From a virus: a DNA stretch of 29,234 nucleotides. The position numbers were made by a program, and so were the translations under genes. Numbering within the stretch: the first letter of the stretch is position 1; every line of letters begins with the position of its first letter. The stretch lies in the IMG/VR virus record IMGVR_UViG_3300025674_008457, positions 1-29,234 of that record, one strand, 5' to 3'. The notes beneath the pieces are model-generated. The model was not told where the DNA came from. It ran no database searches and was given only the letters and a program-made list of their open reading frames with translations. Shown here in pieces: positions 1,701 through 17,371 of this stretch.

Positions 1701-4700
1701 ATGTCAGAAACAAGAGTAAAGGTTCAGTCTATCGTTGAGAATCAACTTCCAAATTTTATTGCTGAGGATTCACCTCTTCTTGTAGAATTCCTCAAGCAAT
1801 ATTATGTTTCACAGGAATATCAGAGTGCTTCTGCCGATATAATTCAAAATATTGACAAGTACTTAAAACTTGAAGAAAATGCTTCCGTAACTGAATTTAC
1901 TTATCTTTCTGCAGATGTAGAATCTTACTCTACAACAATTCCAGCAGGTGCTCTCGGTGTTGGTGGACTTATCAGTAAATTTACTCAAGGATTTCCTGAT
2001 AGATATGGTCTCCTTTTAATTGATAATGAAATCATCACATACGAATACAAATCACAATATGCATTTGAAAATTGTAAAAGGGGATTTAGTGGTGTTACTT
2101 CATATACAAAAACAAACACTCCAGACGAACTAAAATTTGAAAGTTCTGCTGCAGCAAGTCATACTAGACAGACAAAAATTTATAATCTCAGTTCTTTATT
2201 TTTAAAAGAATTTTTACAAAAAATCAAGAGACAATTTGTTCCTGGATTTTCTGATAGAACACTTGATTCCGATTTAAATCAAAGAAGTTTTATATTAAAC
2301 TCTAAGGATTTTTATACTTCAAAAGGAACCGACAAATCCTTCAAAATTCTTTTTGGCGCTTTATATGGCGAAGATGTTGATGTAATCAAACCAAGAGATT
2401 ATCTGTTCAGACCATCAGATGCTGGATATAGAGTAACAAAAGATCTTGTTGTAGAAGCATTATCAGGAAATCCACTGGATCTTTTAAATAAGACTCTATA
2501 TCAAGATGAATATTCTGATTATAATATTGAAAATTCTTATGCTTCAATCACCGATGTTAAAAAAATATTTTTAGGTGGTAAGGAGTACTATCAATTAGGG
2601 TTTGATGCTGATTACGACAAAGATCTTATTCTTCAAGGATCTCTTTATGGTAATTTTTCATCACACCCAAAAACAATCGTTGTTTCTCAAGTATCTGCTG
2701 GTGCAACTGTAATAGATGTTGATTCTACTATTGGTTTCCCAGATTCAGGAACTTTAATATCTACTTTTTCTAGTGGAACAGAAGTTGCTCTAACTTATAG
2801 TGGAAAATCAGTAACACAATTTTATAATGTTTCAAATGCAACTTCAGAAATATCTCCAGAAACAGAAATTAGATTAGATGTATATGCGTATGGATACGCA
2901 GGAATTACAACACAAAATCCCATTAAGGTAAGAATTGGATCAGTTTTGAGTGAAGTTGTTATACCGGACAATACAAAACTTTTCTCAAAGAATGATACTG
3001 CTAGAATCAAAACTTTAGGCATTTCTTCAGAAAGTGTTAGAAGAAATAATTGGATTTATAATATTGCAAACACATATAAAGTCAATTCATTTATTTTAAG
3101 GGATAGTTCTAATTATACGTATGATTTGACAACATTTGATTCAAACAATTTTAAAATTGGCGATAAATTAAAAATCACCGATAGTGGGTCTGTATCAAAG
3201 GATTGTACTGTTGTAGACATTATTTCAGAAAAAAGTTTTTCAATTCGTGGTCAAGGTCAACTGAACACAAATCTTACTTATACTGTAAGTAGATACATTT
3301 TAAAACCAAACTCCTCATCATATCCATACTTAAACAATAATACGGCAAACGTACAAAACGTATATACAAACTATTCTGATGAAGTTTTAGTTGCATCACC
3401 ATCCCTACCAGCATACTATGACCAACTTTTAAATCCATATAATAAAAAAGTAACCATATCTGGTACTTTTAGTGGTGAAGTTTTACAAATAACATCTGGT
3501 TCTGATCATGGTTTTTATACCGGAGATAAAATTTACTATAGACCATATGAAGTTGTTACCACACAACTTGATGATGATTTAAATGAGATTACAACAACTA
3601 CTACTAGCAAATTTCCAGAATTATCTGAGGGTTTATATTATGCAAAGAGAGTAAATTCTACAAGCATAAGTCTTGCTAAGAGTCCATCAAACTTAGAGAA
3701 TGGTGAATATATTTCAGTATCAGGAACGGTTATATCAAATACTTTTGAATATTATGATTTTGCAAACAAAATTTTAAAACCACAAAATATTTTAAGAGAA
3801 ATAAAAGAACCAACCAATAAGAGTGGTAATTATACTACAGTTCCAGGAAAAACGGGAATCCTGGTCAATGGTGTAGAAATTTTAAACTATAAGTCTTCGG
3901 AGACGGTGTTTTATGGACAAATTGATAATATTGATGTAACGGCACAAGGTGGTGGATATGATATTATAAATCCACCCAGTCTTGATGTATCAGATTCACA
4001 AGGAATAGGTGCAACTGGAATTTGTGCAGTTAACGGTTCTCTGCAAAGAATAGAAATTATAGATGGTGGTTTTGACTATGTAAACAAACCAACAGTTACT
4101 ATCACTGGGGGAAATGGTGTTAATGCTTCTGCAGATATCAATATGATTTCTGTTGATCATAATGTTTTCTTCAATGCAGAATCTACTTCTTCGAATGTAA
4201 ACTTATTTACTGATACTATTGGATTTTCTACATATCATAAATTTAGAGATTATGAGAGAGTAATTTATTTACCAGATAACCAAAAATCTGTCGCAGGTCT
4301 TACTACAGAATCTTCATACTATGTTTCGGTTATTGACGGATTTAATATTAAACTTCATGAGAAGCAAAGTGAAGCTATATCAGGTATCAACACAGTCAAT
4401 CTTAACGATTATGGAACTGGTATACACAGATTTAAATCTGCTGTTAAGAAAGAAATTATATCCGAAATAATAGTAAAAAATTCTGGTGAGGGATATCAAA
4501 ATAAGCAAAGAACATCACAAACAAGTGGTATCAGCACATCATTAAATGAAATTAATATCAAATCTCATGGTTACTTTACAGGAGAAGAGATTACATATTC
4601 AACTACTGGATCTGTAATATCAGGTCTTAACACAACATCAACATATCTTGTTAAAAAAGTTAGTGATGATTCGTTTAAATTAGCACCTGTTGGATTAGGA

Positions 4701-7700
4701 ACTACCGCAAGAAACAATTTCTTAGATTCTGAGCAATTTGTTGATTTTTCTTCTACTGGTTCTGGAGTACATTCATTTAACTATCCACCAATTAATGTAA
4801 AAATAGTTGGAAATATTGGGGTTTCTACTTTATCTGGTCAAGATTTTTCAGCTAAAGTTCAACCAATTTTTAGAGGTAGTATTGATTCTATCCATTTGAC
4901 TTCAAATGGTGCAAATTATGGATCTGAAGATATTATCAATTACAATAGACAACCAATTTTTGATTTTAGAAGTGGAACTGGTGCAGAATTGATTGTTATA
5001 ACAAATGATAGAGGAGGAATACAAGAAGTCTTAGTTACAAGACCTGGATCTGGATACAATAGCCCACCAAATTTAGTCATCAATGGTAAAGGTAATTACG
5101 CTAAACTTACTCCAATAATTGAGAATGGACAACTGATTGAGGTTAAAGTAATTAAAAGTGGAATCGGATATGATGGAACAACGACCGTAGACGTAATTTC
5201 TGCCGGCGAAAATTGTAGGTTATTTGCAAATATTCAAAAGTGGACTGTTAATCTGTTCCAAAAGTATTTCAACACAATTACCCCCGATGATGGAATTGTT
5301 ACTACATCAGATAGGGATTCTTATGGATTGCAATACTGTCATTTGTATGCACCAAGAAAACTCAGACAATCTTTATATTCAAAATCACAAAGCGGCGATA
5401 CTAATGTAATAAGAGATCTAATCTTATATGGAATTTTTGATTTAAGAGAAGTTAATAATGAAGAAATATCTTCATCATATCACTCACCAATTATTGGTTG
5501 GGCATATGATGGCAATCCAATCTATGGACCATATGGATTTTCAACTCCAACTGGCGGTGTTGCAAAAGCAATGCAATCTGGTTATCAGTTAGTATCAAAA
5601 TCAAATAGACCGTCTTTAGTATATTTCCCTCAGGGATTTTTCAATGAAGATTATGAATTTAAAAATAATGGTGATTTAGATGAGCACAACGGCAGATTTT
5701 GTGTAACTCCAGACTACCCAAATGGTGTTTATGCTTACTTCTCAACCATCAGTTCGGATTTAGTTGATACTGATGGTCCATTTAAGGGATATAAAAGACC
5801 ATCTTTCCCATACTTCATTGGTTCCAGTTTTTATTCACAACCTATAAATTTCAATTTCTCTAAAGAATCAAATCAAGACGACTATTCATTTACTGGATTT
5901 AAGTGGTTTAGAAATACTACCAACTATAAACTAAAAGGTTCAAACAGTTCCTATAATTATGTTTTTAATCCAGATAAAGTAAAAAATCAAACAGTAAATG
6001 TAAATTATGCCTCCACAGGAAAAGTTAAAAGAGTTGGTATATTAACCGGTGGTACAAATTACAATGTAAATGATAGATTGCTTTTTGATAATTCAGGAAC
6101 TGGTGGAAATAATGCTGCTGCAAGAGTTGAAAAAGTCTTTGGCAAGTCCGTGTTATCTGTTAGTGCAGCGACAACATCTTTCTCATCTGTTGAGTTTGCC
6201 ACTTTAGATGGAACTGGAAGTGTAATAGGTTTTACTACTGCACCACATGGATTAAAGAATCTTGAACTGATTAACTTATCTGGATTTAACACATATTTTT
6301 CAAGTCTGGAAGGATCTTATACTTTAGGTATAAGAACAGATAATTTTGTTACTACTTTAGGAATTTCTACAATCGGGATAACAGGATTAACAACTTATTT
6401 TTATGTTTCTGGAATTTTAGAATTCCCATACATCAGAGAAAATGATATTTTAGGTATTGGAACACAAGAAAAAGTTAAGGTTCTGAACGTAGATTCGACT
6501 GTTGGCAGAATTAGAGTTCTTAGGGAATATGATTCTACTGTAAGTTCCGCATATAGTGCAACAACCGTCCTTTATGAGGATCCCAGAAAATTAAGAATTA
6601 ATACTGGATTTAAAACCGATTATTCATATTCGACAAACAGTGAACTTTATTTTGAACCAAAAGAGTCTGTTGGAGTTGGGACAATTGCTTCTGTTGGTAT
6701 TGGAACAACTGTTGTTTTCTCTCTTCCAGGTGCTGGTTTAACCCAAGTCTTTGTTCCATATCAATCAATTTATCTTCCAAATCATAATTTAAAAACCGGC
6801 GAAAAAGTTGAATATTCAACTCATGGTGGAACCGAAATAACAGTTTTTAATGGAAATATATCTTTTGCACTTCCACAAAATCAAGATCTTTATGTTGCTA
6901 AAATTTCCAACAACCTTATTGGAATATCTACAGTAAAAGTTGGACTTGGCACAACAGGTTCTTTTGTTGGAGTCGGAACAACAAATGCAACAGGACTTCT
7001 CTTCTTTGAAAATTTTGGTACTGGTGATTATCATAGTTTCACCACTAAGAAGCAGTCAATTGTTGGAGAAATTTCTAAAAACATCGTAACTGTAGCAACT
7101 GCATCTACTCATGGTCTTTTGACTGGAGATAGTATTGAATTTTCATCTATCCCCATCAATCAGGAAACTATAGTAGTAAAATATGATGATAGTAATAGAA
7201 GATCTGTCTTTAATCCCAAATCATTTGAATCTGCTGATATAGATGTATCCGAGGATACAATTTATATTGAAAATCACAATCTTAATACTGGCGATAAAGT
7301 AATTCATACATCAACATCACCTTCTGGTGGATTAGTAAATGAAAAAATCTATTATGTTTTATACTTTACTAAAGATAAAGTAAGACTTTGCAATACACGG
7401 TACGATCTCTCATTGAGTATTCCAAACTATGTTGATATAACAAGTGCATCTGACGGTGTTCTTTCTTTAGTAAACCCACAATTAAATCTTTATAGAAATA
7501 AGATTATTAAATTTGATCTGTCAGATTCGTCATTGTCTTATTTGAGTGGACCAACTTTATATTCAGCTTTCCAACTCAATTTCTACTCAGATTCACACTA
7601 TCATTATGAATTTGATGGAACTGGAACTTCTAATAATTTTGAAGTAGTTAGAACAGGTAAGGTTGGTATTGATACTACTGCAAGTGTATCACTTATTTTG

Positions 7701-10700
7701 AATGATTATGTTTCGGATACTTTATACTATAGATTGGAAAATGTTAATTCTGATTTTATAAGTGATACAAAGAAAGAAATAATCACGGACAATGATGTCT
7801 TTAATAATAATCAAATTAATCTTATTGATAGTGTTTATTCTGGAACTCACAGAATCACCGGTATTGGAACAACAAACACCTTTACCTTCAACTTGACAAG
7901 TTATCCAGAAGAGTCGTCTTATACAGCATCCAATGCAAATCTTTATTATGAGACAACATCAACCACTGCTTATGGATCAATATCTAAAGTTAATGTAATT
8001 AATGGGGGAAGTAATTATCAATTTACCCCAGGAATTAGTTCGGTAATTACAAGTTATGGTAGTGGTGCTATCTTTGAATCCGATAGCGATTCTATTGGTA
8101 AAATTGTTAAGAGTGAAATAGAAAATATTGGATTTGACTATCCAACAGATTTGACATTATCACCTTCATTAAATCTACCCGAAATACTTAATATTGAACC
8201 ATTAACTTCTTTTAATAGTATTGGTATTACTTCCGCAGGTAAAAATTATTTAACCTCGCCTGGATTAGTTGTTATTGATGGGTTTACCAAAAAAGTAGTA
8301 TCTGATGTTGATTTAAGATATGATCTTGGTGCAACAAATGTGAGAATAGTGAAGAATACATATGGAATGTATAATACTACACCAACAATTATTCCAATTT
8401 ATAATTCCAATGGTGTCGGAATTAATACAATTTCATATAACTCAACCACAAAAGATGTTACCGTTGGATTTAACACAGGATTTAGTGATTCATTCCCATT
8501 TGCAGTTGGCGATGAAGTTTTAATTGAAAATACAAGCGTTGGTGTTGGATCAACAGCAAGAGGATTTAATTCATCTGGTTATGATTATAAGTTATTTACT
8601 TTAACATCTGTAAATCCTGCTTTAGGTGGAAACACTGGTTCAGTTACATATAATATATCCGAATATCTTACAACTAATGAATTCCCAGGAATTTTTGATG
8701 AATTAAATTCTGCAGGAAGAATTGTTAATAAAAATGATTTCCCTGTTTTTGACATTAAACTGAGAAAAAATGATTTCTTTGAGGGTGAACAAGTATTTTC
8801 TCAATCGGGTTCTGGTATTGTAGAAAGTTGGAACAATAAAATTGAATATCTTAAGGTATCTACAGATAGTGATTTATTGATAGGAGAAGTTCTTACTGGA
8901 CAATCTTCAAATACTAGAGGTGTAGTAAAGAAAAAGATAGATTTTGATTCCTTTGTAAAATTAGCACCAATTTCTTTACTCAATAAAGGATGGACTTATG
9001 ATACTGGATTCTTAAACAATAATGTACAAAGAATTGCTGATAATAATTACTATCAATATTTCTCATATTCGTTGAAGTCTAGAGTTCCATATGAAACCTG
9101 GGAAGAACCTGTACAATCATTAAATCATACTGGAGGATTTTTGAAATTCTCTGATTTAATGATTGAAAATCAAGATGGTGATAGAAATTCTGCAATCGTT
9201 TTCTCTGATGATAGTATTACAGATGTAGTTGTTGACCTGGTTGGTAGTGGAAATCTTAACTGCGTTTATACATTTGATTTGGCAACAGAAACTACAACTA
9301 GAATTGGTACAGGTTTAGTTTCTGATGAAGTAATACTTCAAAACAGAATTCTCACTGATTATTTTGAGTCTGTAGGAAATAGAGTTCTTATTATTGATGA
9401 TATAAGTGATCAATTTAATGACAGAGCAAGACCAACAAGATTCAGTACTATTGATCAATTTGAATTGGATTCTGTTAGAACTAAAAAGTATTTTACATTT
9501 GTAAGAGATAAGAGATACACATTAGAAAGACAGATTATGGTAGTATCATTACTACATGACAATGTTAATGGGTATCTTAATCAATATGGCAGAGTAGAAA
9601 CATATTTGGATCTTGGATCTTTTGATTTTAGTATAACATCAACTTTAGGACAACTTAATTTTTATCCAATTAAGTACTCAGTAAATGATTATGACATTTC
9701 ATACATTTCGCATGATTTGAAAGATTCTGTATCAGGTATAGGTCAGAGTTCATTGGGCAATGTTGTTAACATCAATTCTACACAAACCACATTTGCTTCT
9801 GGTTCATCTTCTGCAGGAACTATAGTTTCAATAGCGGATACTTATCGATCTGCAAAAGTTCTTGTTGAAATCGGTGGAGTTGATGGTTCTTATTACGAAT
9901 TCGATGAGATTAATCTTTTACAAGATGGAACTAATGTTGATATTGTTGAGTATGGACAATTAACAGATCATACATCTATTAATCCTTATGGTGTTCCAGG
10001 TCTTGGCACATACATTCCATATATTGATGGTTCAAATATTAAGATTGACTTTAAACCAAATGCAGCTCTTGGAGTTGGTGTAACAATCAACACATTAGTT
10101 GTATCAATAGCAAGTTCCACATCAGCATTCGTTGGTGTAGGAACAGAAGAGTTAAAGTCGGGATATGTAAGTTCTGGTATTGCTTCAATTACTGCTTCTG
10201 GTTCCCCTGTGGAAACTGTGATTACTGAATATCCAAATAATAGTTCTTGTGCATATTATATTGTAAGTGTTGAAGATACTACAAACCAAAGATATCAAAT
10301 GTCTGAGGTTATAGTCATTGATGATGGAGCAGATGTTTCTATGACTGAATATGGAATTATTCAGTCACACACATCTTTAGGAAATGTTGGTGCTGCAATA
10401 AGCACAAACGGAACTCAACTAACTTTTACACCAGAACCAAGTATTGATGTTCAAGTAAGAGTCTTCCAAAATGCACTGGGTCTTGTTAAAGATTCTGTAT
10501 CCAATACATCAATCGATCTTAATAATGCTGAAATTGTTAGCAGTTATGGAAACTATGATGGAACAGAAAAATCTGTTAAAAGAAGTTTCGACTTAACTCA
10601 CAACCAAAATCCAATATTCTTAAGATACTTCAATGGAAGTAGTTCAGATATTGTTAATGTATCAACGGATTCTATTTTCATTCCTGATCATTATTTTGTA

Positions 10701-13700
10701 ACGGGTGAAGAAGTAAGATATTCTTATGCTGGTGCTGGAACAACGCAAGCAATTGGAATTGCTGCAACCGTTGTTACTGGTATTGGTTTGACCGATAAAC
10801 TTCCATCATCAGTTTATGTCGTAAAAGTGAATGAAAGTACTATTAAATTGGCAGAAAGTGCTTCTAATGCATTAAAACCAACACCGGTTATTTTTGATAT
10901 TACATCTGTTGGAATTGGAACATCGCACTCTTTCACCGCAACTAATCAGAATGCAAAAGGTCTTATTGCAATTGATAATTATATTCAATCACCAATTGTT
11001 GGAACATCAATTACCACAACTTTAGCAAAAAATATAACTACTGTTGACAATCGCCTCACCTTTACTGGAGTTACTTCATTCTTTAGTGGGAACTTGATTC
11101 AAATTAATAACGAAATTATGAAGGTCAATACAGTTGGTCTTGGAAGTACTAATATTGTATTAGTTGATAGACCTTGGATGGGAACTGGATTATCAACTCA
11201 TTCTTCTGGTGATGTTATTAGAATTATTGATGGAAATTACAATATTGTTGAAAATACAATTCACTTTGCAGAAGCACCACACGGATTAACACCTATAGGA
11301 AGTGTAACAAATCCTCCAAATGAGAGAGATTGGGTTGGAATTGCTACACATTCAACTTTCCAGGGCAGAACATTTATGAGAAGTGGTGTTACAAACACTG
11401 CACAAGAGACCTATGAAACCAACTATATCTTTGATGGAATATCTAATCAGTTCACTGGAATTGGTAAGACATTTACTTTGACTGCAGACAACCAAAATAT
11501 AACTGGTTTCTCAACAAATAATGCAGTAATCCTTATCAATGGAGTGTTCCAAGGTCCACAAGGAGCACAAGCAGAATTGGAAGATTATACGCTGATAGAA
11601 AGTGCAGGCATTTCAAGTATCAGATTTATTGGAACAGCATCTTCTGTTGGATATGATGTCAATAATGCAAATGTTCCTGTTGGTGGTGTAATTGTTTCTG
11701 TTGGTTCTTCTACAGGATTTGGATTACAACCTTTGGTTTCTGCTGGTGGCACTGCTGTTGTTTCTGCTGCTGGAACTATTTCAGCAATTAGTATCGGAAA
11801 TAGTGGTTCTGGATATAGAATTGGAATACAAACCGTAGTTAATGTTGGAGTTCAAACTGCAAGCACAGGAACACCAAATATTGAGTTTATTGGAACTGCT
11901 TCGGTAAGCAATGGTCATATCATTGGTGTTGCGATTACTAATCCTGGATTTGGATACACTACAACTAATCCACCAATTGTTGTTTTTGATGATCCTCTCT
12001 CTTACTCCAATATTCCTTTGATTTATAGTTCTTCCTCTTATCAAGGAATAGGAACTGAAGCAAAAATTGATGTTGTTGTTGGTCAAGGTTCTAGTGTAAT
12101 TGATTTTACAATTAAAAATACTGGATATGGATATGGTCAAGGAGAAATTCTGACAGTTGAAATTGGTGGTAACACAGGTATTCCAACAGATACCACAAAA
12201 CCATATGAACAGTTCCAAGTTACAATTGATAAAACATATAATGACTTATTCGCAGGATGGGTTCTTGGACAGTTAGAAGTTCTTGATAGTTTTGAGGATC
12301 TATTTGATGGCACAACTAAGAAGTTCCCATTAAAACTTGGTGGAAACCTGGTTACAATCCGTGCAGCAAAAGGATCTAACATTGATATAAAATCAACACT
12401 CCTTATATTTGTCAATGATATTCTTCAAAAACCAGGTGAAGCGTACTACTTTGAAGGTGGTAGTGTTGTAGAGTTTAGTGAAGCTCCTAAAGAAGGTGAT
12501 TTTGTAAAAGTTCTATTCTATAAAGGAAGTGGTGATATTGATGTAATCTTTAGAGATGTTTTAGAATCAATTAAGGTTGGTGATGAAATTACTTTGAACT
12601 ATGAACCAGGTTTTGGGCAAGGACCAGGACTTCAAGAAGAAGTTAGAGTTATTACTGGTATCAATACTACAGATTCCTTAGAAACAAACCCATATTCTGG
12701 ACCAGGAATTACTACAGATGATACTTTGGTAAGACCAGTTAAATGGTGCAGACAAACTTCTGACAGAATCATTAATGGTAGAATTGTTGGAAAAGATAGA
12801 ATTCATTATGAACCCCTGATTAATCCTTCATCATATCTAATTAATGCTGTTGGTATTGGGTCAACAACAGTTTATGTGGACAATATCAAACCATTCTTTG
12901 ATGCACAGAATGAAAGTCCTTTGTTGAGTTTCCAAAATAAAGTTACATTTACATCTCAAGATTCACTAGTAGCAGCATCTGCAACAGCAATAGTTTCTGC
13001 CGCAGGAACAATAACCTCAATTAGTATTACTGATGGTGGATATGGTTATTCTTCTGCTCCAGTGGTTACACTGCAAAGTCCTGTTGGTCTTGGTTCTACA
13101 TTAAGAGCATCAGCGACTTCTACAATATCGTCAGGTATTGTTGATACTATTACAGTTACTGATCCTGGAACTGGTTATACAACCACAAATCCACCAGTAG
13201 TTCTTATTGAACCACCATCTTTGTTAGATGAAACTGTAGATACAAATTTATATTCTGGTGATGCAGGTGTAATTGTTGGAGTTGGTACTACAACGATAGA
13301 GACAATATTTGATTTTCATATTCCAACCGATTCTTTCTTAAGAGATCCTTCTATAGTTGGATCTGCTATCACTATTAGTGGTATTTCTACAGGAGACTTC
13401 TTTGTCGTTTACAATTCTAATGTTGGACTTGCAACAACTTCAATCAATTCTTTTGATACTTCCAATAATATAATTGGTGTTGGGACACAATATCTAGATA
13501 ATGTTTATTTCGTATCATCATACGTAGATGTTTCTACAAATATTATTGGAATTGGAACAACAAATATTAGAAGAGTTTATGCAAGAACAACCGCAGGGTT
13601 AGGCACAATTAATTTCAGCACTACCAATATTACATTTGATTCTACTTCATACGAATTTAGTTCTGTTGATGTTAGTAGTGGTTCTTTCTTAGGCATTTCA

Positions 13701-13865
13701 ACATCAAATTATTATGGCAACTTTAGTTGGGGCAAAATTGTTCTTTCAGAACCACTGGAAAATGGTGTATTTAATTCTTATACAACCAATGGAGTAGGTG
13801 GAATATCATCCTCCACTTTAGTCAATAGAACCGCATCTTTGAAATATTTAAATTACACCAGTTAA
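1701..13865 (+). CDS. 7: Giant gp7-like baseplate wedge protein with repeat modules and a YHYH domain
   Basis: 4054 residues, about four times T4 gp7 (1032). Residues 1-250 look homologous to the C-terminal part of T4 gp7: IVENQLPNFIAEDSPLLVEF near residue 11 and DFYTSKGTDKSFKILFGALY at 203-222. From memory T4 has DFYSTKG...SYKFLFKVLY. The rest is a chain of beta-rich modules: H-G-x-x-T-G-[DE] modules, G-x-G-Y modules, a YHYH domain (about 1254-1380, GWAYDGNPIYGPYG at 1266 onward), two copies of a ~100-residue domain (2705-2926), an IQINNEIMK/H-S-S-G module near 3130, and an FVNDILQKPGE...FSEAPKEGD module near 3570-3600. No signal peptide or membrane segment is seen. Position directly between gp6 and gp8 supports gp7, the wedge initiator. 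The modules presumably extend the baseplate periphery (inference). The frame is unbroken over 12 kb. The start ATG at 1701 follows a weak A-rich leader. Confidence 0.8.
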   Translation: MSETRVKVQSIVENQLPNFIAEDSPLLVEFLKQYYVSQEYQSASADIIQNIDKYLKLEENASVTEFTYLSADVESYSTTIPAGALGVGGLISKFTQGFPDRYGLLLIDNEIITYEYKSQYAFENCKRGFSGVTSYTKTNTPDELKFESSAAASHTRQTKIYNLSSLFLKEFLQKIKRQFVPGFSDRTLDSDLNQRSFILNSKDFYTSKGTDKSFKILFGALYGEDVDVIKPRDYLFRPSDAGYRVTKDLVVEALSGNPLDLLNKTLYQDEYSDYNIENSYASITDVKKIFLGGKEYYQLGFDADYDKDLILQGSLYGNFSSHPKTIVVSQVSAGATVIDVDSTIGFPDSGTLISTFSSGTEVALTYSGKSVTQFYNVSNATSEISPETEIRLDVYAYGYAGITTQNPIKVRIGSVLSEVVIPDNTKLFSKNDTARIKTLGISSESVRRNNWIYNIANTYKVNSFILRDSSNYTYDLTTFDSNNFKIGDKLKITDSGSVSKDCTVVDIISEKSFSIRGQGQLNTNLTYTVSRYILKPNSSSYPYLNNNTANVQNVYTNYSDEVLVASPSLPAYYDQLLNPYNKKVTISGTFSGEVLQITSGSDHGFYTGDKIYYRPYEVVTTQLDDDLNEITTTTTSKFPELSEGLYYAKRVNSTSISLAKSPSNLENGEYISVSGTVISNTFEYYDFANKILKPQNILREIKEPTNKSGNYTTVPGKTGILVNGVEILNYKSSETVFYGQIDNIDVTAQGGGYDIINPPSLDVSDSQGIGATGICAVNGSLQRIEIIDGGFDYVNKPTVTITGGNGVNASADINMISVDHNVFFNAESTSSNVNLFTDTIGFSTYHKFRDYERVIYLPDNQKSVAGLTTESSYYVSVIDGFNIKLHEKQSEAISGINTVNLNDYGTGIHRFKSAVKKEIISEIIVKNSGEGYQNKQRTSQTSGISTSLNEINIKSHGYFTGEEITYSTTGSVISGLNTTSTYLVKKVSDDSFKLAPVGLGTTARNNFLDSEQFVDFSSTGSGVHSFNYPPINVKIVGNIGVSTLSGQDFSAKVQPIFRGSIDSIHLTSNGANYGSEDIINYNRQPIFDFRSGTGAELIVITNDRGGIQEVLVTRPGSGYNSPPNLVINGKGNYAKLTPIIENGQLIEVKVIKSGIGYDGTTTVDVISAGENCRLFANIQKWTVNLFQKYFNTITPDDGIVTTSDRDSYGLQYCHLYAPRKLRQSLYSKSQSGDTNVIRDLILYGIFDLREVNNEEISSSYHSPIIGWAYDGNPIYGPYGFSTPTGGVAKAMQSGYQLVSKSNRPSLVYFPQGFFNEDYEFKNNGDLDEHNGRFCVTPDYPNGVYAYFSTISSDLVDTDGPFKGYKRPSFPYFIGSSFYSQPINFNFSKESNQDDYSFTGFKWFRNTTNYKLKGSNSSYNYVFNPDKVKNQTVNVNYASTGKVKRVGILTGGTNYNVNDRLLFDNSGTGGNNAAARVEKVFGKSVLSVSAATTSFSSVEFATLDGTGSVIGFTTAPHGLKNLELINLSGFNTYFSSLEGSYTLGIRTDNFVTTLGISTIGITGLTTYFYVSGILEFPYIRENDILGIGTQEKVKVLNVDSTVGRIRVLREYDSTVSSAYSATTVLYEDPRKLRINTGFKTDYSYSTNSELYFEPKESVGVGTIASVGIGTTVVFSLPGAGLTQVFVPYQSIYLPNHNLKTGEKVEYSTHGGTEITVFNGNISFALPQNQDLYVAKISNNLIGISTVKVGLGTTGSFVGVGTTNATGLLFFENFGTGDYHSFTTKKQSIVGEISKNIVTVATASTHGLLTGDSIEFSSIPINQETIVVKYDDSNRRSVFNPKSFESADIDVSEDTIYIENHNLNTGDKVIHTSTSPSGGLVNEKIYYVLYFTKDKVRLCNTRYDLSLSIPNYVDITSASDGVLSLVNPQLNLYRNKIIKFDLSDSSLSYLSGPTLYSAFQLNFYSDSHYHYEFDGTGTSNNFEVVRTGKVGIDTTASVSLILNDYVSDTLYYRLENVNSDFISDTKKEIITDNDVFNNNQINLIDSVYSGTHRITGIGTTNTFTFNLTSYPEESSYTASNANLYYETTSTTAYGSISKVNVINGGSNYQFTPGISSVITSYGSGAIFESDSDSIGKIVKSEIENIGFDYPTDLTLSPSLNLPEILNIEPLTSFNSIGITSAGKNYLTSPGLVVIDGFTKKVVSDVDLRYDLGATNVRIVKNTYGMYNTTPTIIPIYNSNGVGINTISYNSTTKDVTVGFNTGFSDSFPFAVGDEVLIENTSVGVGSTARGFNSSGYDYKLFTLTSVNPALGGNTGSVTYNISEYLTTNEFPGIFDELNSAGRIVNKNDFPVFDIKLRKNDFFEGEQVFSQSGSGIVESWNNKIEYLKVSTDSDLLIGEVLTGQSSNTRGVVKKKIDFDSFVKLAPISLLNKGWTYDTGFLNNNVQRIADNNYYQYFSYSLKSRVPYETWEEPVQSLNHTGGFLKFSDLMIENQDGDRNSAIVFSDDSITDVVVDLVGSGNLNCVYTFDLATETTTRIGTGLVSDEVILQNRILTDYFESVGNRVLIIDDISDQFNDRARPTRFSTIDQFELDSVRTKKYFTFVRDKRYTLERQIMVVSLLHDNVNGYLNQYGRVETYLDLGSFDFSITSTLGQLNFYPIKYSVNDYDISYISHDLKDSVSGIGQSSLGNVVNINSTQTTFASGSSSAGTIVSIADTYRSAKVLVEIGGVDGSYYEFDEINLLQDGTNVDIVEYGQLTDHTSINPYGVPGLGTYIPYIDGSNIKIDFKPNAALGVGVTINTLVVSIASSTSAFVGVGTEELKSGYVSSGIASITASGSPVETVITEYPNNSSCAYYIVSVEDTTNQRYQMSEVIVIDDGADVSMTEYGIIQSHTSLGNVGAAISTNGTQLTFTPEPSIDVQVRVFQNALGLVKDSVSNTSIDLNNAEIVSSYGNYDGTEKSVKRSFDLTHNQNPIFLRYFNGSSSDIVNVSTDSIFIPDHYFVTGEEVRYSYAGAGTTQAIGIAATVVTGIGLTDKLPSSVYVVKVNESTIKLAESASNALKPTPVIFDITSVGIGTSHSFTATNQNAKGLIAIDNYIQSPIVGTSITTTLAKNITTVDNRLTFTGVTSFFSGNLIQINNEIMKVNTVGLGSTNIVLVDRPWMGTGLSTHSSGDVIRIIDGNYNIVENTIHFAEAPHGLTPIGSVTNPPNERDWVGIATHSTFQGRTFMRSGVTNTAQETYETNYIFDGISNQFTGIGKTFTLTADNQNITGFSTNNAVILINGVFQGPQGAQAELEDYTLIESAGISSIRFIGTASSVGYDVNNANVPVGGVIVSVGSSTGFGLQPLVSAGGTAVVSAAGTISAISIGNSGSGYRIGIQTVVNVGVQTASTGTPNIEFIGTASVSNGHIIGVAITNPGFGYTTTNPPIVVFDDPLSYSNIPLIYSSSSYQGIGTEAKIDVVVGQGSSVIDFTIKNTGYGYGQGEILTVEIGGNTGIPTDTTKPYEQFQVTIDKTYNDLFAGWVLGQLEVLDSFEDLFDGTTKKFPLKLGGNLVTIRAAKGSNIDIKSTLLIFVNDILQKPGEAYYFEGGSVVEFSEAPKEGDFVKVLFYKGSGDIDVIFRDVLESIKVGDEITLNYEPGFGQGPGLQEEVRVITGINTTDSLETNPYSGPGITTDDTLVRPVKWCRQTSDRIINGRIVGKDRIHYEPLINPSSYLINAVGIGSTTVYVDNIKPFFDAQNESPLLSFQNKVTFTSQDSLVAASATAIVSAAGTITSISITDGGYGYSSAPVVTLQSPVGLGSTLRASATSTISSGIVDTITVTDPGTGYTTTNPPVVLIEPPSLLDETVDTNLYSGDAGVIVGVGTTTIETIFDFHIPTDSFLRDPSIVGSAITISGISTGDFFVVYNSNVGLATTSINSFDTSNNIIGVGTQYLDNVYFVSSYVDVSTNIIGIGTTNIRRVYARTTAGLGTINFSTTNITFDSTSYEFSSVDVSSGSFLGISTSNYYGNFSWGKIVLSEPLENGVFNSYTTNGVGGISSSTLVNRTASLKYLNYTS
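3495..4780 (+). repeat. H-G-x-x-T-G-[DE] modules, first group (three copies)
   Basis: Three copies of a ~75-residue module, at about 3495-3740, 4216-4440 and 4557-4780. The pattern is H-[GN]-[LFY]-x-T-G-[DE]-x-[IV]-x-Y, then a YYV/YLV strand with a short charged turn and [IF]-x-L, then G-[TS]-G-[IV]-H-x-F. Examples are HGFYTGDKIYY, HGYFTGEEITY and YYVSVIDGFNIKL. The copies are diverged at DNA level. A G-x-G-Y block separates the first copy from the second. Confidence 0.75.
3921..4139 (+). repeat. G-x-G-Y repeat block in gp7-like protein, block 1
   Basis: Encodes two successive ~35-residue units of the form [IV]-x-x-[IV]-x-[IV]-x-x-x-G-x-G/F-Y-x-x-x-P-x-[VL]-x-[VI], ending in a GxGAxA-type turn (GGGYDIINPPSLDVS and GGFDYVNKPTVTITG). 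This is the founding example of a module that recurs in five genes of the window. Confidence 0.72.
4867..5210 (+). repeat. G-x-G-Y repeat block in gp7-like protein, block 2
   Basis: Three units with the cores SNGANYGSEDI, RPGSGYNSPPNLVING and KSGIGYDGTTTVDVI. The block ends shortly before the YHYH domain. A further single unit, TGGTNYNVNDRLLFD, lies just after that domain at about 6018-6170. Confidence 0.7.
5460..5835 (+). other. YHYH domain within the gp7-like protein
   Basis: Residues about 1254-1378 of the giant protein. Y1260-H1261 is followed by GWAYDGNPIYGPYGF, then YEFKNNGDLDEHNGRF, then TPDYPNGVYAYF and PYFIG. This succession is the signature of the YHYH domain family, found in bacterial secreted proteins and marine phage virion proteins. 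Its biochemical function is not established as far as I know. It is flanked by G-x-G-Y repeats on both sides, so it looks like an inserted globular unit. Confidence 0.85.
6190..7480 (+). repeat. H-G-x-x-T-G-[DE] modules, second group
   Basis: Further copies at about 6190-6420 (degenerate, HGLKNLELINLSG), 6765-7040 (HNLKTGEKVEY ... LYVAKISNNLIGI ... GTGDYHSF) and 7080-7480 (HGLLTGDSIEF, then HNLNTGDKVIH ... YYVLYFTKDKVRL). The GIGTT/GLGTT/GVGTT pentapeptide is concentrated between them. One more copy lies at 10670-10935 (HYFVTGEEVRY ... VYVVKVNESTIKL). Confidence 0.72.
7975..8295 (+). repeat. G-x-G-Y repeat block in gp7-like protein, block 3
   Basis: Three diverged units with the cores NGGSNYQFTPGISSV, NIGFDYPTDLTLSP and SAGKNYLTSPGLVVIDG. 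Confidence 0.62.
9813..10478 (+). repeat. Tandemly duplicated ~100-residue domain in gp7-like protein
   Basis: Two copies, at 9813-10113 and 10203-10478. Copy 1 contains AKVLVEIGGVDGSYYEFDEI, then VDIVEYGQLTDHTS, then an LGTYIPYIDGSNIKIDFKP stretch. Copy 2 contains AYYIVSVEDTTNQRYQMSEV, then VSMTEYGIIQSHTS, then LGNVGAAISTNGTQLTFTP. The order of conserved elements is identical, with clear amino-acid divergence, so this is an old internal duplication. Confidence 0.75.
11752..12195 (+). repeat. G-x-G-Y repeat block in gp7-like protein, block 4
   Basis: Three units with the cores NSGSGYRIGIQTVV, NPGFGYTTTNPPIVVF and NTGYGYGQGEILTV. The lead-in VVSAAGTISAISI is nearly the same as the lead-in of the block at 12976 (IVSAAGTITSISI). 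Confidence 0.75.
12976..13215 (+). repeat. G-x-G-Y repeat block in gp7-like protein, block 5
   Basis: Two well-conserved units, DGGYGYSSAPVVTLQSP and DPGTGYTTTNPPVVLIEPP. The second is almost the same as the 11940-11990 unit (NPGFGYTTTNPPIVVFDDP). This is the clearest recent-looking duplication of the family inside this gene. Confidence 0.78.
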
Positions 13866-13895: not shown

Positions 13896-15722
13896 ATGGC
13901 AAGAGTAGCAATAAACACCGGTTCAATAGCAAATGATGGAACAGGGGATACTCTGCGTGCTGCTGGTGGTATTATAAATTCTAATTTTTCTGATATTTAC
14001 AATTATTTTGGTGATGGAACCAATTTGAATTTCTCTGGCGGTAACTGGGAAGTTACCGCTGTTGGAATCAATACACTATCAAGTGTTGGAATAGGAACTA
14101 CAAATCCAAGGTTTGCATTAGAAGTTGGTGCTGTAGGTGCATCTGGCACGTCATTATGGGTAAATGGTAATGCAAGAGTAACTGGAATACTAACAGTAGG
14201 AACAGCATCAATTACACTCGACGGGTCTTCAAATACAATCAGTGTGGGATCTGGTGTAACTATTAATGGTTCTACAGGAATTATTGATGCAACATCAATT
14301 GTTGTTGGTGGAACTACTCTTACTGGCGCAGCAGTTACAAGAATTGAAGCTGGGTCTGGAATTTCTGTAGATCAAAATACTGGTCAAGTTACAATTACTG
14401 CTACTGGTGGTGGTGGAGAATCGTATTGGTCCCAAAATGCCACAGGTATTAATACAACATCAAATATTGGTATAGGAACTACAACGGCATCTAGTGCTCT
14501 TACAGTTCAAGGTAATACTTCTCTTGAAACTCTGAATGTTTCTGGGGTTTCTACTTTTAGTGGTGCAATTGACGCAAATTCTACCGCTAATTTCCAAGGA
14601 GATGTTACTCTCCAATCTAACTTAATTCTTGGAGATAATGACGAAATACAATTGGGTGCTGCTAGTGGTGGTGATCTTTTAATTACTCATCTATCATCTA
14701 CAAATAATTCACTAATTAGAAATAAAAATACTTCTGGATCATTTATTATTGATACTGCTACTGGAAGTCCTATTGAAATAAGACATAGTAGTGGTGGAGA
14801 ACCTATGGGGATATTTACTCCAAATGGTTCAGTAGATCTTTATTATGATAACTCTAAGAAGTTTGAAACTTTTGGTGCTGGTGTAACAATCACTGGAACT
14901 ACTTTTACTGACCAATTAAGTGTTTCTGGTGTTTCTACGCTTGGTACTGTTACTGGTGCTACTTACTATGGTGATGCTTCAAATGCTGCGGATGGCAGAT
15001 GGAATCTTTCTGCAAGTGGAACAGATCATTATATCTTTAGTGGTATTGGTATTACTGCAGGACTACAAAATGATCCAACTTTACATCTTCAAAGAGGTAG
15101 AGTTTATGAGTTTGTGAATGAAATGGGAGCACATCCATTCCAAATTCAACTTGATTATCAAAATACTTCAGGACAACCTTATAATGTTGGTGTGGTTAAT
15201 AATGGTGTTTCTAATGGCACTTTAAGATGGGAAGTTCCATTTAATGCGCCAAATACTCTTTATTATCAATGCACTTCTCACGTTGGTATGAGTGGTACTA
15301 TTCATATTGCACCATCTGGTTATGATGAACCAATAGGATTTAGAACAACTAGAACTGTAACTACAAGTTCTCTTGGTGCAGGTTCTTCAGAAAGCGTTAG
15401 TATCCAAGGATTCAAAACATATGGTTTGCTTAAAGTTGATATTGGAAATGCTGCTTGGGTAACTTTATATACAGACTCTGCATCTAGAACTGCCGACGCT
15501 TCAGCTAGAACACATTTACAAGATCCCGAACCAGGTTCTGGTGTTATTGCTGAAGTTTATACGGAAACTACAGGATCTAGTAGTTTTAAAATGTCTCCAG
15601 GAGTTATTGGGTGGAATAATGATTCCCCAACCGAAAATACAATTTATCTTCGAGTTTTAAATAATGAATCAACTTCAACTGCTATTGGTGTCACAATAAC
15701 ACTGGTCAAAATGGAGGACTAA
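13896..15722 (+). CDS. Tail-fibre-like virion protein with a cupredoxin (type-1 copper) domain
   Basis: 608 residues. Residues 1-50 (VAINTGSIANDGTGDTLRA, then IINSNFSDIYNYFGDGTNL) match an N-terminal segment shared by many marine phage fibre-like proteins. Residues 55-370 are fibre-type repeats, with VGIGTTNP at 64-71, IGIGTTT at 191-197 and LNVSGVSTFSG. Residues about 385-480 form a cupredoxin-like domain: a hydrophobic strand, MGAHPFQI with H413, NNG, LRWEVPFNAP, then YYQCTSHVGMSG with C459, H462 and M465. The C-x2-H-x2-M spacing is that of amicyanin-type blue copper proteins. Residues 490-608 (LYTDSASRTADASAR, GVIAEV, PGVIGWN) look like a C-terminal beta domain seen in other marine phage structural proteins. 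No T4 counterpart lies between gp7 and gp8. It is probably a peripheral baseplate fibre; the receptor is unknown. Its stop overlaps the protease start. Confidence 0.8.
   Translation: MARVAINTGSIANDGTGDTLRAAGGIINSNFSDIYNYFGDGTNLNFSGGNWEVTAVGINTLSSVGIGTTNPRFALEVGAVGASGTSLWVNGNARVTGILTVGTASITLDGSSNTISVGSGVTINGSTGIIDATSIVVGGTTLTGAAVTRIEAGSGISVDQNTGQVTITATGGGGESYWSQNATGINTTSNIGIGTTTASSALTVQGNTSLETLNVSGVSTFSGAIDANSTANFQGDVTLQSNLILGDNDEIQLGAASGGDLLITHLSSTNNSLIRNKNTSGSFIIDTATGSPIEIRHSSGGEPMGIFTPNGSVDLYYDNSKKFETFGAGVTITGTTFTDQLSVSGVSTLGTVTGATYYGDASNAADGRWNLSASGTDHYIFSGIGITAGLQNDPTLHLQRGRVYEFVNEMGAHPFQIQLDYQNTSGQPYNVGVVNNGVSNGTLRWEVPFNAPNTLYYQCTSHVGMSGTIHIAPSGYDEPIGFRTTRTVTTSSLGAGSSESVSIQGFKTYGLLKVDIGNAAWVTLYTDSASRTADASARTHLQDPEPGSGVIAEVYTETTGSSSFKMSPGVIGWNNDSPTENTIYLRVLNNESTSTAIGVTITLVKMED
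15132..15290 (+). other. Putative type-1 copper site in the fibre protein
   Basis: All four canonical ligands are present in the expected order: His413 (codon at 15132), Cys459 (15270), His462 and Met465. The preceding LQRGRVYEFVNEMGAHPFQI resembles the G-D-x-V-x-F/W-x-N ... H-x-[VF] lead-in of plastocyanin/amicyanin-type domains. Copper loading is inferred, not shown. Confidence 0.72.
15713..15717 (+). promoter_or_regulatory. Strong Shine-Dalgarno (GGAGG) inside the fibre gene end
   Basis: GGAGG sits four bases before the protease ATG at 15722, and the fibre stop TAA shares its last base with that ATG (TAATG). This is the classic layout for translational coupling and fixes the protease start. 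Confidence 0.85.
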
Positions 15723-17371
15723 TGGATAAGTACATAGTTGCAGTTAAAAAAGGAACTGACATTCAACAATTTTATGATGATATGGAAACTTCTGGTGGGA
15801 GTGAAACAATTCCGGAAAGAGAAGTTTCCTGCTATGACAGAAGACCAATTAGTAGAAACACTGGATATGATTTAACGGAGGATGAAGTTAATAATTTGCT
15901 TAATGATGAGAGGGTAATTGGTATCAGTAAGCAGTCGGTAATTGATTCTTTAATTAACAGACCTCTTTGGGAACAAACATCAAGTGATTTTGATAAAAGC
16001 GCATCAATATCAAACACCAACATAAATTGGGGACTTTATAGATGCACAAGAGGAACTCAAGTTTCAAATTGGGGGTCAGATGGTACAGTTGATGCATCTG
16101 CTACAATAAGAACTACTAGTTCTGGAAAAAATGTTGATGTTTTGATAGTTGATGGACATTTGAATCCAGACCATCCAGAGTTTGCAGTAAATCCTGATGG
16201 AACTGGTGGATCAAGAGTTCAGCAATTTAATTGGTTTTCTCTTACCAATCAAGTCACAGGAGGTGCTAATGGAACTTACACATATCGTTCTGGTACATCT
16301 CTAAACAATGCTAATGATAATCATGGAATGCACGTAGCAGGAATAGTTGCTGGGAATACTGTAGGTTGGGCAAGAGACGCAAACATTTATTATGTGAGTC
16401 CATATGACTCTCAAATAGCAAATCAGTATTTGTTTGAATATGTTAGAGCTTGGCATAATCAAAAAGAAATAAATGCATCTACAGGTAGAAGAAATCCAAC
16501 TATAGTCAATAATAGTTGGGGATCTTATAATGGAATCCCAAGAGATTCAAATACTTATGTATCTTATAGGGGAGTTAATAGTGGCACAAATCCAAGTGAC
16601 GGTGATTTAAATTCTCGTGGTGTTCTTTATTATGATGTATCAACCATTTATGTCGGGTATCAGGATCCAACTCTTGTTGCGGACATTGAAGATTGTGTTG
16701 ATGATGGAATAATTTTTGTTGGGGCTGCTGGAAATGAAAGTGAAAAGATAGATCAATATGGAGGAACTGACAGAGATAATGCTGTTATCTATGGCGGACC
16801 TTATTATTACATGAGAGGTTCTTGGAACACTGCAGCATTGCGTCCCAATAGTACAACTCGACTTAGTGTTTGTGTTGGTGCAGCAAGTGCATTGGTAAAT
16901 GAGTCAAAGGCAACTTTTAGTGACTGTGGACCACGAGTTGATATTTTTGCTCCTGGGGATAATATTATTTCTGCCGTGAATGATGGAACAGTAACGGGTG
17001 GAACGGTAACCACAGTTAATGACAGTAGAAATTCTTCATATAAATTTGCAAAATACGATGGAACAAGTATGGCATCCCCACAGGTTTGTGGTGTTCTTGC
17101 TTGTCTTCTTGAACAATATCCAGCAATGATGCAAAGTGATATTTTTGATTATATCGAGCAGCATCAAACAACAGGTCAAATGACAACCACAAGTGGCGGA
17201 GTCACTGATAATACAGATTTGCAAGGTGCGGGAAATTATTATCTTTTTTATTTTAAAGAAAGACCTGAAGAAGGCATATCTGTTCCAAGATATACTGTTA
17301 ATCCAAGAAGAGGAACTTCTAGTGGTGTCAAATATCCAAGGAGTAGAGTAAGACTTACAAAAGCATCATAA
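15722..17371 (+). CDS. Subtilisin-family (S8) serine protease
   Basis: 549 residues. Residues 1-80 look like an I9-type inhibitor propeptide (KYIVAVKKGTDI, then LTEDEVNNLLNDERVIGI). The catalytic domain follows, with Asp144 in VDVLIVDGHLNPDHPEF, His201 in NHGMHVAGIVAGN, oxyanion-hole Asn338 in FVGAAGNES, and nucleophile Ser449 in DGTSMASPQVCGVLACLLEQ. IVNNSWGS at about 261 is the usual S8 core strand. The full catalytic set is intact, so it is probably active. There is no signal peptide or membrane segment, and the C-terminal tail is basic (NPRRGTSSGVKYPRSRVRL). It is translationally coupled to the fibre gene, suggesting the two work together, for instance in fibre or baseplate maturation or as a virion-borne enzyme degrading host surface protein. 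Neither role is shown by sequence. T4 has no S8 protease here. Confidence 0.93.
   Translation: MDKYIVAVKKGTDIQQFYDDMETSGGSETIPEREVSCYDRRPISRNTGYDLTEDEVNNLLNDERVIGISKQSVIDSLINRPLWEQTSSDFDKSASISNTNINWGLYRCTRGTQVSNWGSDGTVDASATIRTTSSGKNVDVLIVDGHLNPDHPEFAVNPDGTGGSRVQQFNWFSLTNQVTGGANGTYTYRSGTSLNNANDNHGMHVAGIVAGNTVGWARDANIYYVSPYDSQIANQYLFEYVRAWHNQKEINASTGRRNPTIVNNSWGSYNGIPRDSNTYVSYRGVNSGTNPSDGDLNSRGVLYYDVSTIYVGYQDPTLVADIEDCVDDGIIFVGAAGNESEKIDQYGGTDRDNAVIYGGPYYYMRGSWNTAALRPNSTTRLSVCVGAASALVNESKATFSDCGPRVDIFAPGDNIISAVNDGTVTGGTVTTVNDSRNSSYKFAKYDGTSMASPQVCGVLACLLEQYPAMMQSDIFDYIEQHQTTGQMTTTSGGVTDNTDLQGAGNYYLFYFKERPEEGISVPRYTVNPRRGTSSGVKYPRSRVRLTKAS

Follow-up and report, generated by a model that had tools for sequence, protein, structure and literature searches.

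A Cupredoxin Domain with a Predicted Type-1 Copper Site in a Baseplate Connector of a T4-Like Cyanophage

The Locus and the Connector Gene

The window, that is, the whole stretch of DNA that was analysed, comprises 29,234 nucleotides of the IMG/VR virus record IMGVR_UViG_3300025674_008457. The features that are of interest here, with their positions in the window, are:

3–1694, gp6-like gene, upstream of the connector gene
1701–13865, + strand, 4054-aa open reading frame (ORF) with a YHYH domain, upstream of and adjoining the connector gene
5466–5756, + strand, YHYH domain (PF14240, E = 2.4e-24) within the 4054-aa ORF
13896–15722, + strand, connector gene, 608 aa, gp9/10-type baseplate wedge/tail-fibre connector carrying the cupredoxin domain
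13908–14282, + strand, T4 gp9/10-like N-terminal attachment domain, residues 5–129 (PF07880; phmmer to T4 structures)
14991–15314, + strand, cupredoxin-like domain, residues 366–473, ~108 residues (AlphaFold2, Foldseek and profile matches)
15132–15134, + strand, putative copper ligand His413, motif GAHPFQIQ, just before strand 415–418; conserved 91%
15270–15272, + strand, putative copper ligand Cys459, at the end of strand 454–459; conserved 95%
15279–15281, + strand, putative copper ligand His462; conserved 93%
15288–15290, + strand, putative axial copper ligand Met465; conserved 93%, Gln in one relative
15339–15716, + strand, C-terminal beta-sandwich domain, residues 482–607 (phrog_9627, phrog_15343; model pLDDT 92.9)
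15722–17371, + strand, subtilase-like virion protein (PF00082, E = 1.9e-27; phrog_9158)

The conservation percentages refer to a non-redundant set of copies (n = 45, mean identity 34%).

The initial annotation had taken the 608-residue product for a phage fibre protein. Its place among the virion proteins stands, whereas the fibre has to give way to a gp9/10-type baseplate wedge/tail-fibre connector. The profile phrog_677 matches residues 1–473 of the ORF with E = 4.5e-39, PF07880 (T4_gp9_10_N) scores 26.4 bits, above its cut-off of 25, and the phmmer comparison of the N-terminal domain with the structures of T4 gp10 and gp9 gave a best E of 7.3e-5. Moreover, the gene is flanked by gp6-like and gp8-like genes; both the profile match over the length of the protein and this gp6–gp8 neighbourhood are those of a T4 gp9/10-type connector (PHROG 677), which is predicted by homology to sit at the junction of baseplate and fibre in the virion.

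On the 3' side of the connector, the order of the genes is subtilase-like, gp8, a 2534-aa DUF4815 protein, a head-tail adaptor and a gp14-like neck gene, and the start codon of the subtilase-like gene overlaps the final base of the connector gene (15722), within the baseplate cluster. The relatives of gp8 are cyanophages of the S-SM2, S-B43 and RB11-B kind, with up to 68% identity. Given these relatives and the neighbourhood of baseplate genes, the source contig is, as far as sequence tells, of T4-like cyanophage type, and the protein is a connector and not a fibre. Apart from YHYH, Pfam gives no confident domain in the 4054-aa ORF, and the model of the C-terminal domain of the connector retrieved only weak, mixed matches with Foldseek and no clear fold relative. 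PHROG 677, the cyanophage gp9-type connector, is the same gene and its profile includes the cupredoxin domain at positions 307–410, although its description names neither copper nor a cupredoxin domain; the copy in the window has the C-terminal domain in addition.

Fold of the Domain and Arrangement of the Ligands

A blue-copper domain had been annotated at about residues 385–480. This location was correct, and by profile the domain extends slightly wider, over residues 366–473. The codons of His413, Cys459, His462 and Met465, read directly in the ORF, confirm the order and the C-x2-H-x2-M spacing that had been described, and Cys459 is the single cysteine in all 608 residues. An AlphaFold2 model of the domain, built from an alignment of 65 relatives, has eight strands (pLDDT 94.9, pTM 0.87) and places His462 and Met465 in the loop after the Cys459 strand, which is the ligand arrangement of cupredoxins; thus, the order His...Cys-x(n)-His-x(n)-Met is found in the expected loops. 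When the model was compared with the PDB by Foldseek, all of the best 50 matches listed were copper proteins, with probability 1.00 to cupredoxins. The best match was nitrite reductase (1.6e-5), and rusticyanin, laccases, CueO and pseudoazurin were also retrieved, with modest TM-scores (0.4–0.59) and large rmsd. AlphaFold2 and Foldseek agree in giving an eight-stranded Greek-key beta barrel/sandwich, so the structure prediction proposed as a check came out in favour of a cupredoxin fold. In BFVD, the model also matched, with E about 1e-7, proteins of Pithovirus and Marseillevirus relatives that are named "beta-sandwich proteins".

The profile search that had likewise been proposed leads to the same proteins. 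The family profile finds copper nitrite reductase (E = 1.6e-4), amicyanin and plastocyanin, and in the alignments the Cys, the second His and the Met fall on the known ligands of amicyanin and plastocyanin. His413 lies two residues before their canonical His, because the phage motif reads His-Pro-Phe and theirs Pro-His-Asn. The family profile was needed for this, as the search of the PDB with the single sequence gave only a marginal match to copper nitrite reductase (E = 0.57). Against PF00127, with a cut-off of 21.2 bits, the window sequence scores 14.3 bits and the best relative scored singly 20.2; weak matches to this model occur in 38 of the 65 family members. PF25489 (At5g54830-like domain) also matches weakly in 33 of the 65, with a best E of 7.6e-6, and is below its cut-off in each member checked individually. 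Since no Pfam cupredoxin model is above cut-off among the members scored singly, we think that the phage domain is best filed, on its sequence, as a cupredoxin-fold family of its own. The presence in a virion protein of a cupredoxin domain with a complete predicted type-1 ligand set is thus supported by sequence and model.

Conservation and Loss of the Ligands

The non-redundant set consists of 45 copies with less than 62% identity (mean pairwise identity 34%), of which 44 have readable ligand columns. The four ligand columns are 91–95% conserved in the 45 copies and are among the most conserved of the domain. All four ligands are kept in 40 of the 44 readable copies, so that the ligands are far from being lost in most homologues; two copies have none, one has Met alone and one has Gln in place of Met. 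Losses of His413 and Cys459 go together (Fisher p = 7.6e-5, a value that is not corrected for relatedness), and one copy reads Y-A-D-L at the four positions.

Part of this set (L023–L100) was fetched with a pattern that contained the Cys and the second His and is therefore biased for them, so that two sets chosen without the ligand pattern carry more weight. In the first, taken from whole phage records, H-C-H-M is found in 32 of 37 rows, with a few places counted in two rows; the other rows are either fragments or copies that have lost several ligands. The second comprises 52 loci that were retrieved with nothing but the C-terminal domain of the connector. A cupredoxin lies upstream in 17 of them, with H-C-H-M in 16 and one cut by the contig end; the connectors of the remaining loci are without the module, in some cases because the contig ends there. 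One of the 52 loci (L200) has an extra copy (L200_1, residues 37–143) with Gln for the axial Met. The module is thus optional in connectors, and the complete copies there keep the metal site intact. A domain shared so widely, with these four residues among its most conserved columns, is more than chance, and the conservation together with the optional module indicates selection for a putative metal site that is not required by baseplate assembly.

Distribution and Association with YHYH

By tblastn, the domain occurs in 330 phage records, from Synechococcus and Prochlorococcus phages, cyanophage isolates and three marine single-cell viruses. P-SSM2 has four matches and P-HM2 five, whereas whole-record searches gave no match in P-SSP7 and one ligand-incomplete fragment in S-PM2. 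In Syn9 and P-SSM7, gp9 has the site intact. The copies lie in gp9-type connectors, in subtilase-type proteins (phrog_9158), in which the cupredoxin is at the C-terminus, and in YHYH proteins. In P-SSM2 and S-SCSM1 they occupy the N-terminal part of proteins that bear the annotation proximal tail fibre, and P-SCSP2 has one in a podophage protein. Contigs assigned by binning to MAGs of Rickettsiales, Planctomycetota and Rhodopirellula (L102, L101 and L104) also hold close relatives of the phage domain. Contig L102 has a gp9/10 N-terminal match alongside and is, by this, probably mis-binned phage DNA. Further relatives lie on contigs that look cellular or are uncertain (L105–L107). We do not claim a cellular origin for the domain, since the relatives on genome contigs are partly mis-binned phage DNA.

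The association with YHYH takes several forms. In the window, the YHYH ORF and the cupredoxin connector are adjacent genes. In S-SSM4, ACG-2014d and S-RIM14, the YHYH domain of the gene that follows the connector is split by a cupredoxin whose four ligands are all present; the same insertion can be recognised in Syn9 and S-SSM5, in which its ligands are gone and the connector copies are intact. A single 4458-aa chain of P-HM2 unites YHYH with two cupredoxin copies, and in a Neomarinimicrobiota genome YHYH and cupredoxin are 6 kb apart. A published prediction makes YHYH a zinc-dependent hydrolase of the tail, in a work that does not mention a cupredoxin (PMC7824862). It is a speculative and, in our opinion, unlikely extension that the tails of marine cyanophages would combine a redox-active copper protein and this predicted metal-dependent hydrolase into a copper-dependent machine that acts on the host surface in the course of infection.

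Relation to Known Metal Proteins

The likeness to amicyanin that had been pointed out holds for the C-x2-H-x2-M loop, with its identical spacing, and not elsewhere: the amicyanin model TIGR02657 scores 14.3 bits where its cut-off is 110.2, and the first His is in an HPFxIx motif. With amicyanin and plastocyanin (PF00127, TIGR02657, TIGR02656) the phage domain has the cupredoxin topology in common; however, their first His stands in Pro-His-Asn, whereas the phage ligand precedes the Pro. Furthermore, they are free soluble electron carriers and the phage copy is a domain within a virion protein. The cupredoxin domains of copper nitrite reductase, rusticyanin and multicopper oxidases are the best Foldseek and profile matches, at TM-scores of at most 0.59, and differ from the phage domain in its short C-x2-H-x2-M loop. 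The type-1 His of multicopper oxidases precedes a Pro, as in the phage HPF motif, but oxidases have the HPFHxH histidines of the trinuclear cluster and the phage domain, with HPFQIQ, is without these. The single replacement of the axial Met by Gln is a known type-1 alternative, as in stellacyanin.

As for phage tails, structural iron is known in virion fibre tips and has been proposed for cyanophages as well (PMC11705849). The HxH tip of T4 gp37 likewise holds a transition metal in a tail fibre component; its octahedral His sites lie on the trimer axis, whereas the connector would have a Cys-His-His-Met site inside a cupredoxin (PMC11705849).

Possible Roles of the Copper Site

We think that the baseplate wedge/tail-fibre connector of this T4-like cyanophage carries, in residues 366–473, a cupredoxin module whose type-1 copper site is complete. 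By analogy with trimeric T4 gp9, several copies of the domain would be expected per virion, and the site would hold copper there; sequence and model together make a real copper site in the phage domain highly probable. With less confidence, we infer that the copper would serve a function other than folding, most likely one at the surface of the host when the phage adsorbs. The module might be redox-active or a metal-dependent contact module, and it may act together with nearby tail domains, YHYH among them. Such a function is suggested by the loss of the site all at once rather than by erosion and by the module being optional, and this modularity also speaks against its taking part in the assembly of the baseplate. 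Taken as a whole, a type-1 copper module on the connector with a host-surface/redox or metal-dependent contact role is the explanation that we favour, and we consider it reasonably probable. The chances of a redox or host-contact role, as opposed to a pure structural clamp, seem to us about even.

The clamp is the main rival: copper or another soft metal would only stabilise the beta-sandwich, with no redox role. The location of the module in a structural protein and the precedent of the iron in the fibre tips discussed above make this reading possible, if tentative. Nevertheless, a clamp would have no need of a soft axial Met that is conserved with the strictness of the Cys, and copies without the whole site still score in the same fold family, so that metal is not needed for folding. 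The strict Met and the all-or-none loss point to copper chemistry rather than to a bare scaffold. The same pattern bears on a domain used for adhesion only, a cupredoxin-derived beta-sandwich that binds no metal and keeps its residues by ancestry. Some copies persist without ligands, and the shuffling of modular tail domains is frequent; yet ancestry alone would erode the ligands one by one, and they are lost in concert and otherwise 91–95% conserved at a mean identity of 34%. We regard it as improbable.

Two further proposals concern adsorption itself. Virion copper could be a lure recognised by a copper-handling surface protein of the host, a copper analogue of the Ferrojan Horse suggested by the analogy with iron-bearing tail fibres (PMC11705849). 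No such host receptor is known, however, and some picocyanobacterial phages lack an intact site, as P-SSP7 and S-PM2 illustrate, so we consider the lure very unlikely. Even less credible to us is a light- or redox-dependent switch behind the failure of some cyanophages to adsorb in the dark. In darkness P-HM2 fails to adsorb and P-SSP7 infects (PMC7112961), which agrees with their five matches and none, but a comparison of two phages that differ in tail type is no test, and the P-HM2 copies lie in other tail proteins, one of them without its ligands. Checked against P-HM2, P-SSP7 and S-PM2, light-dependent adsorption was unsupported beyond this two-phage coincidence.

Perspectives

Cupredoxins are known, and so are metal-bearing phage fibres; for a cupredoxin with an intact type-1 site in a virion baseplate connector, we found no description in the open-licence literature. 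Should the site hold copper, its blue colour would be a clear biochemical handle on tail proteins whose role is unknown, and the metal or redox dependence of cyanophage adsorption would become directly testable with isolates, already at hand, that have or are without the site. Blue-copper tail proteins would then be a feature of a large group of viruses that are abundant in the ocean, and virions would be linked to copper chemistry in the way that has been proposed for iron.
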